From IMG/VR virus record IMGVR_UViG_3300017963_000121, positions 1 through 43,265 of that record: a stretch of 43,265 nucleotides of DNA; one strand, written 5' to 3'. Each line of letters begins with the position of its first letter. Positions within the stretch are counted from its first letter, which is position 1. The DNA is from a virus. The notes beneath the pieces are model-generated. The model did no database searches and was not told where the DNA came from. It saw nothing but the letters and a program-made list of their open reading frames with translations. Position numbers and translations under genes: made by a program. Positions 20,393 through 31,241 of the stretch are shown in pieces.

Positions 20393-21628
20393 ATGGAAAT
20401 GAAAAAACGCCGCTCAAAATGCAAGCAAGAAAAATGCAGAAAGGCATTTAAGTTCAGGGCTTATCCTAACAGGGAGCTGCAGAACCGGATGTTCGATATG
20501 ATGCGAGTAAATACTATTGCTTACAACGGCTGCGTGGGCGAATACGATGTAGCTTATGGCTCATTTCGACGAAAGATCGCCGAATTTAAAAAAAGCGGCG
20601 CCGGCTGGGATAGCCTGGATGAAAAGAGGAGGGAGAAGCTCGTAAAAGAGGCCATTAAATCGGTGGACTGGCCCACGAGGTCGAAATTGTACGGTAATTA
20701 CGTGAGCAAGCGTAACAATCCGCAGAATGACGGTTTTTACATAGCCGCAATTCAAAATACCATGCTGCAGGTTTTTAATGCCGTTCACGGCTACCAGTCC
20801 AAGAGGGACAAGGGCGACCCGGATGTCAGGAGGCCGAAAAAACAGGACTTTCACAGAGGTATAATATACAGGCAGTCCGGCTTCTTCCCAAAAAAGGCAG
20901 TGAAAAATAAGGTCAGGCTAAGTGGAATCGGCACGATAAAATTCAAACGCCACAGGGAGATAGAGGGCCGGATAAAGGCGGTAATTGTGAAGTTCGAACA
21001 TGGAAAATGGTACGTAATCTTTTCATGCGAGTCGCCGGTAAAGAAGAGGAAGCGGACGGGTAAGAAGGTTACGATAAAATTTTCAGACCTTTATTTTATC
21101 GAGGATTCATCGGGCAGGATTATCGAGCAGCCGGGCTATTATTTCGGGAGCCTTCCCAAAATAAGGGAGCTTTCACGGGCATACAGCAAAAAGAGCCTGC
21201 AGTATAAAGACGGCGATTATAAAAAGCTTGTGGTTGACGCGGAGAAGGACTTTAAGAAAAAAAACTTAAAAAAGGCCAAAAGGAAACTGGGCAAGTTCCA
21301 CGGGAAAATAAAGGGCAGGCGGCGCGATTTCATAAACAAGATAGTCCGCAATTACGTGATGGAATACGATATCATTACCGTTTACGAACAGCCGTTTTAT
21401 CTCAGGCAGCAGTGCCAGCTTTCGAGCAGGGACGCCATAAGGCTGGCGGACGCGGCGCCGGGAATTTTTTTGAGAATGTTAAAACATAAATGTAACGAGT
21501 ACGGTGTGAAGCTGATACTTATAAAGAACGAGCTTTTGTGGGATGCCGGCAGGCAAATAACGGCCGACAAAAAGAGCATAAAACAACAGAAACAATTTTT
21601 AAGAAATGTGAAAAGGAGAATGAAATGA
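20393..21628 (+). CDS. TnpB/Cas12-like CRISPR-associated protein, RuvC site degenerate
   Basis: 411 residues from ATG 20393, which follows AGGAG (a GTG at 20351 would add 14). The N-terminus FKFRAYPNRELQNRM and the following helical bundle are the OrfB/TnpB wedge and recognition region. From about 222 it follows TnpB's RuvC: KKVTIKFSDLYFIEDSSG, GRIIEQPGYYFGSLPKIREL, a bridge helix, LGKFHGKIKGRRRDFINKIV and YDIITVYEQPF. The canonical RuvC-I Asp (VGID) aligns with Lys229 and the RuvC-II Glu aligns with Tyr331 or shifts to Glu332. The CxxC zinc ribbon and RuvC-III Asp are absent, and the chain ends after GVKLILIKNELLW plus 30 residues. It probably binds guided targets without cutting. It is translationally coupled to the next gene and sits about 400 bp before the array. 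Confidence 0.85.
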   Translation: MEMKKRRSKCKQEKCRKAFKFRAYPNRELQNRMFDMMRVNTIAYNGCVGEYDVAYGSFRRKIAEFKKSGAGWDSLDEKRREKLVKEAIKSVDWPTRSKLYGNYVSKRNNPQNDGFYIAAIQNTMLQVFNAVHGYQSKRDKGDPDVRRPKKQDFHRGIIYRQSGFFPKKAVKNKVRLSGIGTIKFKRHREIEGRIKAVIVKFEHGKWYVIFSCESPVKKRKRTGKKVTIKFSDLYFIEDSSGRIIEQPGYYFGSLPKIRELSRAYSKKSLQYKDGDYKKLVVDAEKDFKKKNLKKAKRKLGKFHGKIKGRRRDFINKIVRNYVMEYDIITVYEQPFYLRQQCQLSSRDAIRLADAAPGIFLRMLKHKCNEYGVKLILIKNELLWDAGRQITADKKSIKQQKQFLRNVKRRMK

Positions 21629-21924: not shown

Positions 21925-22022
21925 CCGTGAGTTTTGCTCTTTGTAAAATAAATAAACGTGGCGATGGTATTCGCCTTCCCGGGCCCGCAAATGTGGGCTG
22001 GCGGGAGAACTGCACCGAATCG
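21925..22022 (+). promoter_or_regulatory. CRISPR leader with three consecutive hairpins
   Basis: The 98 bases between the 99-residue gene and the first repeat hold GGCGA/TTCGCC-type and GCCCGC-aaat-GTGGGC hairpins, the latter enclosed by CCCG/CGGG. Next to the array, TGCACC (leader) pairs with GGTGCA, the first bases of repeat 1. The right-hand repeat of the array is truncated, which puts the leader on this side. I see no clear -35/-10 pair here. Confidence 0.5.
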
Positions 22023-22636
22023 GGTGCAAAGGACCTCGATTTGTGATGTAGATACAACTCATCCTTGATGGCCTCTGTTCAAGTCCATGGTGCAAAGGAC
22101 CTCGATTTGTGATGTAGATACAACTAGAGATATCCGGCTATATTGGTAAATTCGGTGCAAAGGACCTCGATTTGTGATGTAGATACAACTGATCTCCTGT
22201 TAATCTGAAAAATACCTTCGGTGCAAAGGACCTCGATTTGTGATGTAGATACAACACTTGCTCGATCTTGCCAATACGCAAACGGGTGCAAAGGACCTCG
22301 ATTTGTGATGTAGATACAACGCCGTTGACCTTGACGCTGGCCCCCTCGGGGTGCAAAGGACCTCGATTTGTGATGTAGATACAACTTAATTCTGATTTGC
22401 AGGCAGCCTGGGCAAGGTGCAAAGGACCTCGATTTGTGATGTAGATACAACCGATCCCCTTCAACATAGATAAATGTTGCGGTGCAAAGGACCTCGATTT
22501 GTGATGTAGATACAACGCTGTTGATATTTTTATCCGCTTTTTGTGGGTGCAAAGGACCTCGATTTGTGATGTAGATACAACAAGCTGAATATTTGAAGGT
22601 TCTAAAGCCAGGGTGCAAAGGACCTCGATTTGTGAT
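22023..22636 (+). CRISPR. CRISPR array: nine perfect 36-bp repeats plus one truncated, nine spacers
   Basis: Repeats start at 22023, 22089, 22154, 22220, 22285, 22350, 22416, 22481 and 22546, all identical over 36 bases, beginning GGTGCAAAGGACC and ending GTAGATACAAC. A tenth keeps 25 bases (22612-22636). Spacers are 29-30 bases: 22059-22088, 22125-22153, 22190-22219, 22256-22284, 22321-22349, 22386-22415, 22452-22480, 22517-22545, 22582-22611; all nine differ. The degenerate end suggests transcription left to right, the same direction as the effector. Read in reverse the repeat starts GTTGTATCTAC, a style seen in type II-C and V arrays. Confidence 0.98.
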
Positions 22637-22637
22637 A

Positions 22638-26159: not shown

Positions 26160-26188
26160 TTGACAATATCCGATTATACTTATATAAT
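26160..26188 (+). promoter_or_regulatory. Consensus sigma-70 promoter of the Cas2 cassette
   Basis: TTGACA at 26160-26165, exactly 17 bases, then TATAAT at 26183-26188: a perfect match to the bacterial consensus. Transcription should begin near 26195, 30 bases before the next gene. GACAATAT overlaps the -35 box, the same word as in the 10562 and 10599 repeats. Confidence 0.85.
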
Positions 26189-26224
26189 TATAATAGAATT
26201 GATAATTAAATAAAGGATCAAAAA

Positions 26225-26695
26225 ATGAAACGCACAAAAATTCAAATCGAAAGACAAACAAAAAAAGCATTTCTTATTTCCGATGGAAATGGCCGTAAGG
26301 GATGGATTCAGAAAAGATGGATGGACGCCGATGGAACGGTCGCCGAAAAAACTCTCGCCAGGGCAGACGAGAATTACCGGCAGCACCAGGCCGCTTACGC
26401 CGAAGCAAAAGAGCACGCTAATTCTTATCACAAAATTATCAATCAGGTAAGAGAGACAGAAAAAGCAATTGCTGTTAAAGTGGTTTTGGAGTTTTGTGAT
26501 GTAGAAAAAATTTACTCTAAATTGATCTGGATTCCCAAGTCACTTCTAAAAGATAACACCGTGCCCGGCTGGTTCGTAAATAAAAAACTAAACGAGCTGC
26601 TCGAAGAATACCGTATGGATTTCAGCAGGTACGGCAGCGTTATAATCGACTCGGTAGGTGTGGCCGATTACGATGACAGGTGTTATATAATGTAA
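26225..26695 (+). CDS. Hypothetical protein in operon with Cas2
   Basis: 156 residues, preceded by AAAGGA. The start IQIERQTKKAFLISDGNGRKGWIQKRW and the later IWIPKSLLKDNTVPGWFVNKKLNEL look like two parts of a small phage domain (usually ExxKAxLV ... WIPKS ... WF), here separated by a helical insert (about 40-90). It ends VADYDDRCYIM. Function is not known. It is the first gene behind the consensus promoter and 17 bases before cas2. Confidence 0.65.
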   Translation: MKRTKIQIERQTKKAFLISDGNGRKGWIQKRWMDADGTVAEKTLARADENYRQHQAAYAEAKEHANSYHKIINQVRETEKAIAVKVVLEFCDVEKIYSKLIWIPKSLLKDNTVPGWFVNKKLNELLEEYRMDFSRYGSVIIDSVGVADYDDRCYIM

Positions 26696-26712
26696 TTTGA
26701 AAGGATCGAAAA

Positions 26713-27036
26713 ATGAAGGGCAAAAAGAAAAATATATTTTCTGGTTACAGTCTCAGCTGGCTGTTTGTAATGTATGATCTTCCGTACGATACGAGTGAAG
26801 CGAAAACAGCGGCGGCGAAATTCTTAAGGCATTTGAAAAAAGAGGGATATACAAAACTTGTCGACCGAGGCAAATTTATGATACGTCACTGCGGACCGGG
26901 AAATGCCGAAAAACAAATAGAAAAAATAAAAGATATATTACCTCCGGACGCGATGGTACGCATACTTCAAGTAACTGACAAACAGTTCGGGCGTATGGTA
27001 AATTTGTGGGGAAAGATGAGAAAAGGCGTATGGTAA
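26713..27036 (+). CDS. cas2: Cas2 (type II/V-like), without Cas1
   Basis: 107 residues. WLFVMYDLPYDTSEAK (Asp22) is the first strand with the conserved Asp, followed by AKFLRHLKKEGYTKL, IRHCGPGNAEKQIEKIKDIL and MVRILQVTDKQFGRM, the order and motifs of Cas2 from type II-C and V systems. In those systems Cas2 dimers bridge Cas1 dimers to insert spacers. No Cas1 or Cas4 is visible here, so it may use host Cas1 or have another role. A 35-bp tandem duplication has changed its last residues to GVW. It is 4 kb from the array but under its own promoter. Confidence 0.9.
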   Translation: MKGKKKNIFSGYSLSWLFVMYDLPYDTSEAKTAAAKFLRHLKKEGYTKLVDRGKFMIRHCGPGNAEKQIEKIKDILPPDAMVRILQVTDKQFGRMVNLWGKMRKGVW

Positions 27037-27059
27037 ATTTGTGGGGAAAGATGAGAAAA
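26990..27059 (+). repeat. 35-bp perfect tandem duplication at the cas2 end
   Basis: 26990-27024 and 27025-27059 are identical (starting GGCGTATGG). Because 35 is not a multiple of three, the second copy shifts the frame and brings in a stop at 27034-27036. Without it the protein would end KMRKTA. Confidence 0.9.
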
Positions 27060-27079
27060 ACGGCTTAGTATTTTTTGAT

Positions 27080-27119
27080 CCGGCCCCTTGGCGCGTTGCC
27101 GGGGGCCGGGTCTTTTCTT
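27080..27119 (+). terminator. Intrinsic terminator after cas2
   Basis: CCGGCCCC (27080-27087) pairs perfectly with GGGGCCGG (27102-27109), followed by GTCTTTTCTT. Together with the promoter at 26160 it makes the hypothetical gene and cas2 an independent transcription unit. Confidence 0.8.
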
Positions 27120-27126
27120 AATTATT

Positions 27127-27375
27127 ATGGGAATTTCATTTATCGACGAATGGCTTGTGGCCGAGGGCACGGATAGCGGAAGATGGTATATAATACATGC
27201 CGTCGAGCCGAGATTTATTATGGAGATGCTCGATGAAGATGATGGCGGCTATTCGTCCGGTGAGGCCTTTATAATCGATGAATGTTTAGATGCCTCTTTG
27301 ATGGCGAAGCTGGCAAGAGAAGCGGGCGAGGCTTTTGAAAAATACGACAGGGAACTTGAAGATGAGCGGGATTGA
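27127..27375 (+). CDS. Small acidic protein, unknown
   Basis: ATG 27127, 82 residues. It starts with an aromatic-rich part (FIDEWLVAEGTDSGRWYIIH) and then a strongly acidic helical part (MLDEDDGGYSSGEAF, YDRELEDERD). No family recognised. It overlaps the HTH gene by 14 bases. Confidence 0.55.
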   Translation: MGISFIDEWLVAEGTDSGRWYIIHAVEPRFIMEMLDEDDGGYSSGEAFIIDECLDASLMAKLAREAGEAFEKYDRELEDERD

Positions 27376-27553
27376 TTTCAGGAAAGAGATAAAAAAGCGG
27401 ATGAAAAATCATAAGATAAGCACGCCTGAGCTTGCAAGGCGCATAGAGCTTAACTCGCAGACTTTATATAATTTTCTTTCAGGAAAAAGCGAACTGACAT
27501 CGGCCAACCTTTCGGCTGCCCTCGATGTGCTCGGCGTAAAAAAATTAATTTGA
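27362..27553 (+). CDS. Cro/XRE-family helix-turn-helix protein
   Basis: ATG 27362, 63 residues: KNHKISTPELARRIELNSQT, LYNFLSGKSELTSANL, AALDVLGV. This is a single XRE helix-turn-helix, sufficient for a Cro-like regulator. It overlaps the acidic protein gene, suggesting a small regulatory pair. It may control the consensus promoter of this cassette. Confidence 0.7.
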   Translation: MSGIDFRKEIKKRMKNHKISTPELARRIELNSQTLYNFLSGKSELTSANLSAALDVLGVKKLI

Positions 27554-28666: not shown

Positions 28667-30160
28667 ATGGAGCCGCGCAGGAGAAAATCCGTTAATACGA
28701 GACTGCTGAAACTCTCGGAGAAGCTGGACGATTATGCGGCTGTGATATCGCCCAGGTGGGCGTACCGCAGGCGGGCGTTCCGGTTCGGGTACGAGGTCCT
28801 CGACAGGAGCAGGCAGCGGAAGAAGCGGTCGGGGATATCGGGTACGGGCGACTCGCAACTTACGGCCGAGCGGCTGGCCAGGCTTCGTGATATATGCGAG
28901 GACCTGGCCAGGAACAATCCGCTGGTCAAGGGGATACTGAGGAGGCTGGCGACGAAGGTGGTGGGGACCTCGACGAAGATACAGGCCCGGACGGCCGACG
29001 CCGGCTGGAACGCGGAGGCCGAGCGGCTCTTTAAGGCCGAGATGGTCGAGCGGCCGTGCGATGTCACCGGCAGGTTCGGCATACAGAAGTACCTAAAGAC
29101 ATTATACCAGTCGTACGCGACGGCGGGCGATATATTCACTATATTCACCGACGACGGTCTCCAGGCGGTCGAGGGCTGCCAGGTGGGTACGCCCTACGGG
29201 AGAAAGGACGCGAAGAACTACGACCGTATAAACGGGATAGCTGTTTCCAAGAAGACAAAGAAGGTGATAGGCTACTATGTGGGCGTGCCGAACAGGTGGG
29301 GCTATATTAAGAACGAGGACGTTAAGATGTATCCGGCGGGCGCGGTGCATCATTCGTTCAGTCCGGACCGGTTCAGCTGCTCGAGGGGCGAGCCGGCCCT
29401 GGTCTCGGCGGTGGATACGATAGATAAGCTGTTCGGGTATATAGACGCCGAGCTGGTGGCGGCCAAGATCAATGCGTGCTTTCCGATGATGATAACGACC
29501 AGGGACGCCGAAGGTAAGAACCCGGCCTATACCGGCGGGATAAGCTCGACGGGAAAGGACGCCGACGACAGGACGCTCGTTAAGATAGACCCGGGCATGA
29601 TATGGGAGGGCGACCCGGGCGAGGAGGCCAAGGCGATAGGGGCGGCCAGGCCGGCCCAGGCGTTCGATAACTTCGTGCTTCGGATACTCATGCTGATAGG
29701 CAATCCGGTGAACCTGCCGCTCATGCTGGTCACCGGTGACTATTCGGGCGCGACCTTTATGAACAGCCGCGTGGCCTACCAGGAGGCCCGCGATACCTGG
29801 GCGGACGAGCAGGAGCTGGTGATAAAGCCGTTTCTTCACCGGGTCTGGCTGTGGAAGGTCTCGCAGTGGATCGCCCGGAAGAAGCTCACCGAGCGGGACG
29901 ACTGGGCCTTACACGAGATCCAGTGCAAGAGATGGCCGTATGTGGACCCGTACAAGGAGTCGATGGCCGACAAGCAGCAGCTGGCGAACGGGACGACGAC
30001 CCGGACGGACATATGTGCAAGGCAGGGCGACGATTTCAGGGACGTTACCGACCGGCGGGCGGACGAGGAGAAGTATCTCGGGGAGAAGGGGGTGACATTG
30101 ACGGCGGCAAAACAAAAATCAAATATCGAGAATAAAAATGGAAAAGAAGATGGACGATAA
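28667..30160 (+). CDS. Portal protein (lambda gpB family)
   Basis: 497 residues. YRRRAFRFGYEVLDRSRQRK, LARNNPLVKGILRRLATKVV, ATAGDIFTIFTDDG and the PLMLVTGDYSGATFMNSRVA motif are typical of lambda-family portals, which form the DNA channel and the packaging motor docking ring. The end overlaps the protease gene by 23 bases. Confidence 0.9.
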   Translation: MEPRRRKSVNTRLLKLSEKLDDYAAVISPRWAYRRRAFRFGYEVLDRSRQRKKRSGISGTGDSQLTAERLARLRDICEDLARNNPLVKGILRRLATKVVGTSTKIQARTADAGWNAEAERLFKAEMVERPCDVTGRFGIQKYLKTLYQSYATAGDIFTIFTDDGLQAVEGCQVGTPYGRKDAKNYDRINGIAVSKKTKKVIGYYVGVPNRWGYIKNEDVKMYPAGAVHHSFSPDRFSCSRGEPALVSAVDTIDKLFGYIDAELVAAKINACFPMMITTRDAEGKNPAYTGGISSTGKDADDRTLVKIDPGMIWEGDPGEEAKAIGAARPAQAFDNFVLRILMLIGNPVNLPLMLVTGDYSGATFMNSRVAYQEARDTWADEQELVIKPFLHRVWLWKVSQWIARKKLTERDDWALHEIQCKRWPYVDPYKESMADKQQLANGTTTRTDICARQGDDFRDVTDRRADEEKYLGEKGVTLTAAKQKSNIENKNGKEDGR

Positions 30161-31241
30161 TCGGCTGGATATAAAAGACGATGGGACGACGGCGCCGGTG
30201 AAGGCGTGCGTATTCGCAGAAAAGTCTGATGTGCTGTTCGCCGAGGGCGGCACTGAGGACGATAACGATAACGGGTTTCGGATAACCGGATACTCGGGCG
30301 GGATAATAAAGGACCACTGGTACTGGGGCAATCTTGCGATAGACCTCGAGGGTGCGAAGTTCGCCAAGGGCCGGATACCGGTGCTGCAGGAGCATTTTAC
30401 ATCGAGCCCTATAGGCTTTTCGACCAAACAGGAGATAACGGACAGGGTAACGGTGGAGGGCCGGTTCCTGCCGAACGACAACGCCCAGTCGCTGCGGGCG
30501 GACATGAAGGCGGGCCTGCCGATGGAGGCGAGCCTGTACTGCCCGCCGGCGGTGATAGAATATGTCAAGGAGGGCTCTTCGGTAAAGGTGAATGGCCGGA
30601 CACTTAAAGGGCCGGGCGCGGTATTCCGCAGGTCGGTCATTAAGGAGGTCTCGATGTGTGTTTTCGGGTACGATTCGGATACCCGCTCGTCGGCAATGGC
30701 CGGCAAAAGGGAAGTTAAATTCAGTTTATATCAGGAGAATAATATTATGGCTAAAGAGAAAGAAGAAAAATTGACAATAGAGAGCTTCGCCCGGGAGTAC
30801 CCCGATCTGCACGGCGAGATTACCGAAAAGGCGAAGGCCGAGGGCCTGGCGGAGGGTAAAAAGGCCGAGCAGGACAGGTTCGAGTCGCTCAGGGAGGCCT
30901 GCGGCGGCGATAATGACCTTCTTGCCGAATGCTTCGCCGGCGGACTGACCACCGCCGATGCGTTAAAGAAGAGGGCCGAAAGGCTCGCCGAGGCAAATAA
31001 GAAGCTAAGTGAAGAGAACAAAGAGCTGAAGAAGAACAACACCGATAGGGTGGACCCGGCGGCGACCGAGTTCAGCGACGAGGCGGCCGACCCGGACAAG
31101 CAGACTGCGTTCGATGAGAAGACGGCCACCGAAGAGCAGCTCAAAGAGCATTACCAGAAGACGGCCGCACTCCAGGACGAGTTCCATAGCGAGGGTGCGT
31201 ATCTGGCGTATGTAAAGAAAGAGGTCAGGAAGGCCGGATAG
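30138..31241 (+). CDS. Prohead protease fused to scaffold
   Basis: 367 residues. The N-terminal 190 residues look like a Mu gpI-type prohead protease: RIPVLQEHFTSSPIGFSTKQ, MEASLYCPPAVIEYVKEGSS, VKVNGRTLKGPGAVFRRSV, SMCVFGYDSDT. The rest is a charged coiled-coil scaffold domain (KAEGLAEGKKAEQDRFESLR) with its own start at 30747. Scaffold and protease shape and mature the prohead. Residues 145-153 (EGSSVKVNG) match the peptide encoded antisense by CRISPR spacer 5 at eight of nine positions. Confidence 0.8.
   Translation: MEKKMDDNRLDIKDDGTTAPVKACVFAEKSDVLFAEGGTEDDNDNGFRITGYSGGIIKDHWYWGNLAIDLEGAKFAKGRIPVLQEHFTSSPIGFSTKQEITDRVTVEGRFLPNDNAQSLRADMKAGLPMEASLYCPPAVIEYVKEGSSVKVNGRTLKGPGAVFRRSVIKEVSMCVFGYDSDTRSSAMAGKREVKFSLYQENNIMAKEKEEKLTIESFAREYPDLHGEITEKAKAEGLAEGKKAEQDRFESLREACGGDNDLLAECFAGGLTTADALKKRAERLAEANKKLSEENKELKKNNTDRVDPAATEFSDEAADPDKQTAFDEKTATEEQLKEHYQKTAALQDEFHSEGAYLAYVKKEVRKAG
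30747..31241 (+). CDS. Internal scaffold protein (Nu3-like, nested start)
   Basis: An in-frame ATG at 30747 lies nine bases after AGGAG (30733-30737) and would give a 164-residue scaffold (MAKEKEEKLTIESFAREYPD). Lambda Nu3 is made in the same way from within gene C. It also begins like the next gene (MAKKKEEKKTV), which suggests that gene is a duplicated scaffold. Confidence 0.65.
   Translation: MAKEKEEKLTIESFAREYPDLHGEITEKAKAEGLAEGKKAEQDRFESLREACGGDNDLLAECFAGGLTTADALKKRAERLAEANKKLSEENKELKKNNTDRVDPAATEFSDEAADPDKQTAFDEKTATEEQLKEHYQKTAALQDEFHSEGAYLAYVKKEVRKAG

Follow-up and report, generated by a model that had tools for sequence, protein, structure and literature searches.

We find that a phage genome of 43,265 bases (the whole virus record, here called the window) carries a conserved Cas2 homologue that has neither a Cas1 gene nor the C-terminal tail by which Cas1 would be docked, and that this gene occupies the exchangeable slot of a small operon between terL and gpW. 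Such a Cas2 probably now serves another purpose. Our preferred reading, to which we give a probability of roughly 0.4, is that it is an anti-adaptation decoy against the host, held in a slot of the acr/aca kind; a part in the phage's own RNA-guided system and a stand-alone nuclease, both unlikely, come next, and help in adaptation through a host Cas1 comes last. The window genome looks complete, given its exact end repeat of 123 nt. Its relatives are metagenome contigs, several of them fragmentary, and the phages bearing Cas2 number two, the window and the 4.9-kb contig L001.

That the gene at 26713 to 27036 (plus strand, 107 amino acids) is a real Cas2 homologue, as had been predicted, is borne out by several searches. 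The best profile match was the PADLOC Cas2_II model (E = 8.5e-22), and the protein scored above the cut-offs of both Pfam PF09827 (31.1 bits against 23.8) and TIGR01573 of NCBIfam (30 bits against 24.5); a phmmer search of the PDB matched it to Cas2 chains of type II-A (E = 3e-8). Foldseek with an AlphaFold model also returned type II-A Cas2 first (E = 6e-5, TM 0.66/0.78), an assignment of fold that is weak because the mean pLDDT of the model is only 53. The top match, S. pyogenes Cas2 (5zyf), is a chain of only 92 residues and is thus itself tail-less.

Cas2 and VapD share one fold, and nuclease activity has been reported for both (PMC11980593). One can picture the phage protein as a stand-alone nuclease or toxin of this fold that acts on nucleic acid of the host or of competitors and has nothing to do with CRISPR, and the exchange of its slot among unrelated genes, as with morons generally, would suit such a role. 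We give this reading a low probability, since the matches are to type II Cas2 and not to VapD, no antitoxin was recognised, and the preceding gene of the operon, ORF156, is retained in other phages that have no Cas2. Identity with VapD itself we reject: the protein is like VapD in belonging to the Cas2-like ferredoxin fold family, but no VapD profile matched it, VapD is absent among the Foldseek matches listed, the family matches are all Cas2, and no vapX/W/Y antitoxin was found. The original prediction had named Cas2 relatives confined to array-free phages and grouping with VapD as the result that would speak against it; what we see instead is type II Cas2 in two phages that both have an array.

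A full set of Cas2 motifs had also been claimed. DLP, IRHC and TDKQ are indeed kept, but SVY, an invariant arginine and the C-terminal tail are gone. The comparison is with 28 Cas2 homologues from 27 genomes, recovered from a sample of 299 Pseudomonadota genomes and so from a single phylum; 25 of the 28 fetched stretches also encode Cas1. All 28 cellular proteins extend 11 to 25 residues beyond the point where the phage Cas2 ends, nearly all of these tails finishing in approximately Q[LIMY]xLF, whereas neither of the two phage proteins does so. Both phage proteins are changed at R38, Q52, S54, V55, Y56 and G80, positions that are 93 to 100% constant in the cellular set (96 to 100% when V55 is set aside). 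The SVY motif is lost through S54K, V55F and Y56M, and a basic stretch, RGKFMIRH, has replaced it. Both have kept D22, L23, P24, F37, L41, G45, R58, P77, T88 and Q91, with the first-strand aspartate in the form D22-L-P. In a tree, the two make up one clade (100/100) on a long branch (1.39), adjoining a cellular subgroup that shares IRHC (92/80); the nearest cellular example from the scan, L007, is about 34% identical.

In type II-A systems, the C-terminus of Cas2 (residues 92 to 113 in S. pyogenes, beta6) is essential for Cas1 binding, the beta6 strand joining the N-terminal sheet of Cas1 (PMC12216489, PMC6620040). By homology, the tail missing from the phage Cas2 corresponds to this docking strand, and we infer that a II-C-like tail may have the same role. 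An assembly artefact can be rejected as the source of the missing tail, since the separate contig L001 is tail-less too. At its 3′ end, the cas2 of the window does have a 35-nt stretch duplicated exactly in tandem (26990 to 27059, plus strand), a change that alters the last residues only (..KMRKGVW in the window, ..AMRKTG in L001). L001 has one copy, and the duplication is therefore not the cause of tail loss; it reflects a recent mutation or an assembly effect in the window.

Loss of the tail has not been accompanied by decay of the gene. The L001 protein lies at the same genomic position and is 75% identical to that of the window, and the dN/dS of about 0.07 (dN 0.16, with a dS of about 2.2 that is near saturation) is the lowest among the genes compared. 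Judged from this pair of sequences, the phage cas2 gene is under strong purifying selection. A gene conserved while its tail and SVY are lost points to a repurposed Cas2 core rather than a normal Cas1 partner, and a core that is conserved but cannot dock Cas1 by the known route probably does not serve simply to help adaptation. The proposal that it adds spacers with host Cas1 is disfavored for this reason, the docking tail being absent from two of two phage proteins and present in 28 of 28 cellular ones.

No match to the Cas1 family PF01867 was found in the window, in agreement with the Cas1 absence first claimed, or in six relatives, several of them fragments. Scans of viral contigs with single-sequence and two-row Cas2 queries recovered L001 only. 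Two records labeled as Listeria phage also contain Cas2, and the one that was examined contains a cas1-cas2 locus of bacterial type; a long ORF precedes it, and its Cas2 has the tail. This record, L065 (OR848241.1), is probably host DNA, and we rejected it as a case of phage Cas2. An orphan or phage Cas2 was not found by exact phrase in the open-access literature, which speaks weakly for novelty.

The cassette is much as it had been described: it lies between terL and gpW and is AT-rich, with a GC content of 40.4% where the genome as a whole has 50.8% (values as low occur in 6% of 960-nt windows). The perfect consensus promoter and strong terminator claimed for it are both there. The sigma-70 promoter (TTGACA-17-TATAAT, 26160 to 26188, plus strand) matches the consensus at 12 of 12 positions and is the sole such match in the window, where chance would give 0.02; its position is kept in L001 and more loosely in L017 and L018. 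The intrinsic terminator 3′ of cas2 (27077 to 27119, plus strand; stem 27077 to 27112, -31 kcal/mol, z = -4.9) has comparable hairpins in L001, L017 and L018. Cas2 was thought to stand alone between these signals; the promoter and terminator of its own hold up, but a second gene, ORF156 (26225 to 26695, plus strand), precedes it. For this first resident gene, profile searches gave no curated family above cut-off, and its AlphaFold model is of low confidence for the most part. Its identity is 72 to 74% in L001 and L017 and 47% in L018, and a widened alignment picked up homologues in L026 and L027. Beyond the terminator lie ORF82 (27127 to 27375, plus strand), with homologues in L001, L018 and L026, and, at the end of the block in an Aca-like position, an HTH_26 Cro/C1-type regulator (27362 to 27553, plus strand; PF13443, 31.4 bits against a cut-off of 22). 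The regulator gene is kept in L001, L016/L017, L026 and L027 and was not detected in L018. Separately, an intergenic motif around CCTGTGCCATAGGTAT recurs at many gene junctions of the window in either orientation (1013, 1077, 2945, 27597, 28414, 31237, 40557 and 42249).

The order of promoter, ORF156, slot gene, terminator, ORF82 and HTH gene is conserved among related phages, and what changes is the slot. L001 reads as two related-array repeats, terL, a Zn-ribbon ORF, promoter, ORF155, Cas2, terminator, ORF82 homologue, HTH gene and gpW. Unrelated genes fill the slot elsewhere, making five contents in all: a 206-residue protein unrelated to Cas2 in L017 (8412 to 9032 of that contig; L016/L017), one of 174 residues in L018 (8894 to 9418), two other genes in L026 (1274 to 2151) and a 186-residue protein in L027 (3476 to 4033). 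L016 and L017, which agree in ORF156 and HTH scores and in spacing, may be one phage. The shared operon with differing slot genes indicates that the unit is resident and that its second gene is what gets exchanged. No family above cut-off was found for the slot genes of L017, L018, L026 and L027, which are candidates for other anti-host functions. The view of the cassette as a moron is thus supported, given its own promoter and terminator within the late region, the varying slot gene and a tyrosine-recombinase-like protein encoded by the phage (15544 to 16251, minus strand; recognized by motif only).

The window also encodes an RNA-guided module. A TnpB/Cas12f-like effector with a degenerate RuvC-I motif (20393 to 21628, plus strand) and a guide-RNA (tracr-like) scaffold (21940 to 22022, plus strand; z = -4.6) stand upstream of a CRISPR array (22023 to 22637, plus strand) of ten 36-nt repeats, the last degenerate, and nine spacers of 29 to 30 nt. 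The array ends at the start codon of a terS-like gene and has the effector on its other side. The same layout is found in L004 and L005, in which RuvC-I is degraded as well; the pre-array stretch is well folded in each of them and in the window (z = -4.4 to -6.1) and holds an anti-repeat against the first repeat, and between L004 and L005 four of seven pairs of this pairing differ on both sides. As a single-sequence query the effector found nothing; a three-row effector alignment brought in L004 and L005, along with array-less TnpB-like proteins at a greater distance. Relaxing the repeat pattern led to no further array, only to seven isolated matches attributable to chance, and an Rfam search gave sub-threshold matches only.

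One spacer gives a hint of its source. The reverse complement of spacer 5 (22321 to 22349, plus strand) encodes EGASVKVNG, close to EGSSVKVNG at 30570 to 30596 in the phage's own head-region ORF (30138 to 31241, next after the portal gene); the BLOSUM score of 41 was reached by none of 84 shuffled spacers. At the DNA level, spacer 5 had no match in the window phage within 7 mismatches, no spacer matched the fetched loci with fewer than 7, and nothing credible matched in the collections of phages and plasmids. Spacer 5 would fit an origin in a related phage, the source itself not being found among the collections and loci searched, and the resemblance suggests that relatives have probably contributed material to the array.

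How far Cas2 goes with the array can be judged from few genomes. The link that had been suggested holds insofar as Cas2 is present in two of two phages with both operon and array and absent from both phages, L017 and L018, that have the operon and are array-free (L017 has neither array nor effector in the 4.4 kb upstream of terS, and L018 no array in its readable terminase region); the contigs of L026 and L027 stop short of the array position and were excluded from these counts. It is weakened by there being just two cases of Cas2, and with two phages on either side the joint occurrence is no more than suggestive. Effector and array are present in L004 without a Cas2 within its 14.7 kb, and so the array does not require Cas2.

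These observations bear on the idea that the phage Cas2 joins a host Cas1 to add spacers to the phage's own array. Besides the joint occurrence, the idea can draw on the regularity of repeats and spacers, which is that of a Cas1-Cas2 ruler, on spacer 5, and on the divergence of terL. This gene, which lies between array and Cas2, is closest to the window in L017 (74% identity) and only 38% identical in L001, in contrast to the 72 to 76% of Cas2 and ORF156, implying that an exchange took place without separating array from Cas2. We nevertheless rank this reading lowest and think it quite improbable, with docking tail and SVY absent in both phages, L004 managing without Cas2 over the length of its contig, and Cas1 not found in any record searched.

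The same co-occurrence could mean that Cas2 serves the RNA-guided system without Cas1, as a nuclease or nucleic-acid binder that makes or uses TnpB/Cas12f-like guides. RNase or DNase activity is known for some Cas2 proteins (PMC11980593), the aspartate at the catalytic position, Asp22, is retained, and the basic stretch in place of SVY would be in keeping with such a role. We regard this as the main rival to the decoy, although an unlikely one; the effector and array of L004 come without Cas2, the operon is present and the array absent in L017 and L018, and no physical or operon link joins the two modules.

We put the decoy first on account of the acr-aca-like slot, the precedent of AcrVA5 and the conserved core that would be unable to dock Cas1 as type II Cas2 does. 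We imagine that the Cas2 core, driven by its own promoter in the moron operon, would join the host's type II-like Cas2, or occupy prespacer DNA, while being unable to recruit Cas1, so that spacer acquisition would be blocked in the infected cell or lysogen. We infer alike that Cas1 binding is lost, that a heterodimer forms and that adaptation is affected. Of the two roles originally proposed, poisoning host adaptation would fit better than adding spacers with host Cas1. Several points tell against the decoy: both Cas2 phages have arrays, for which a decoy aimed at the host has no need; with identity to L007 at about 34%, a heterodimer cannot be taken for granted; a terminator separates the slot gene from the HTH gene; and the cellular comparison comes from Pseudomonadota only, and the structural one from a model of such low mean pLDDT. 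More tentatively, Cas2 may have shed its docking tail to become a dominant-negative subunit of the host integrase, the phage keeping its own array aimed at related phages. If the decoy is real, a phage has made Cas2 itself an inhibitor of CRISPR adaptation, and one may ask whether phages use pieces of Cas2 to stop hosts from recording infections. In any case, a conserved orphan Cas2 near a phage array, without the part that holds Cas1, makes a Cas1-free function of Cas2 directly testable.

Phage CRISPR systems are typically without adaptation genes. Those of huge phages resemble the present one in having a short array, a TnpB/Cas14-like effector and no Cas1, but they nearly always lack Cas2 as well, whereas this 43-kb genome has kept Cas2 alone, in a separate operon (PMC7162821). 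The effector likewise recalls the TldR proteins, nuclease-dead TnpB-like repressors of temperate phages, in being TnpB-derived, with a degraded RuvC, in a temperate phage; TldR has a single gRNA cassette, however, and the effector here precedes a multi-spacer array (PMC13418256). The Cas2 is like that of type II (II-A/II-C) in core sequence, predicted fold, and the DLP and TDKQ motifs, with IRHC as in one cellular subgroup, and unlike it in lacking the docking tail, SVY, Arg38 and a Cas1 gene and in sitting in a phage moron slot. The acr genes lie in shuffled clusters next to a fixed HTH aca gene (PMC7648647), and here also exchangeable small genes stand beside a conserved small HTH gene. In the phage operon a terminator hairpin stands between slot gene and ORF82/HTH, and slot gene and HTH may therefore not share one transcript as acr and aca would. 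AcrVA5 acts on Cas2 and blocks protospacer integration (PMC11021501). Spacer integration is also the step at which we propose that the phage Cas2 would act, and both are phage-type genes from a variable slot; AcrVA5, however, is an unrelated protein that acetylates Cas2, whereas the candidate inhibitor here is a Cas2 homologue.
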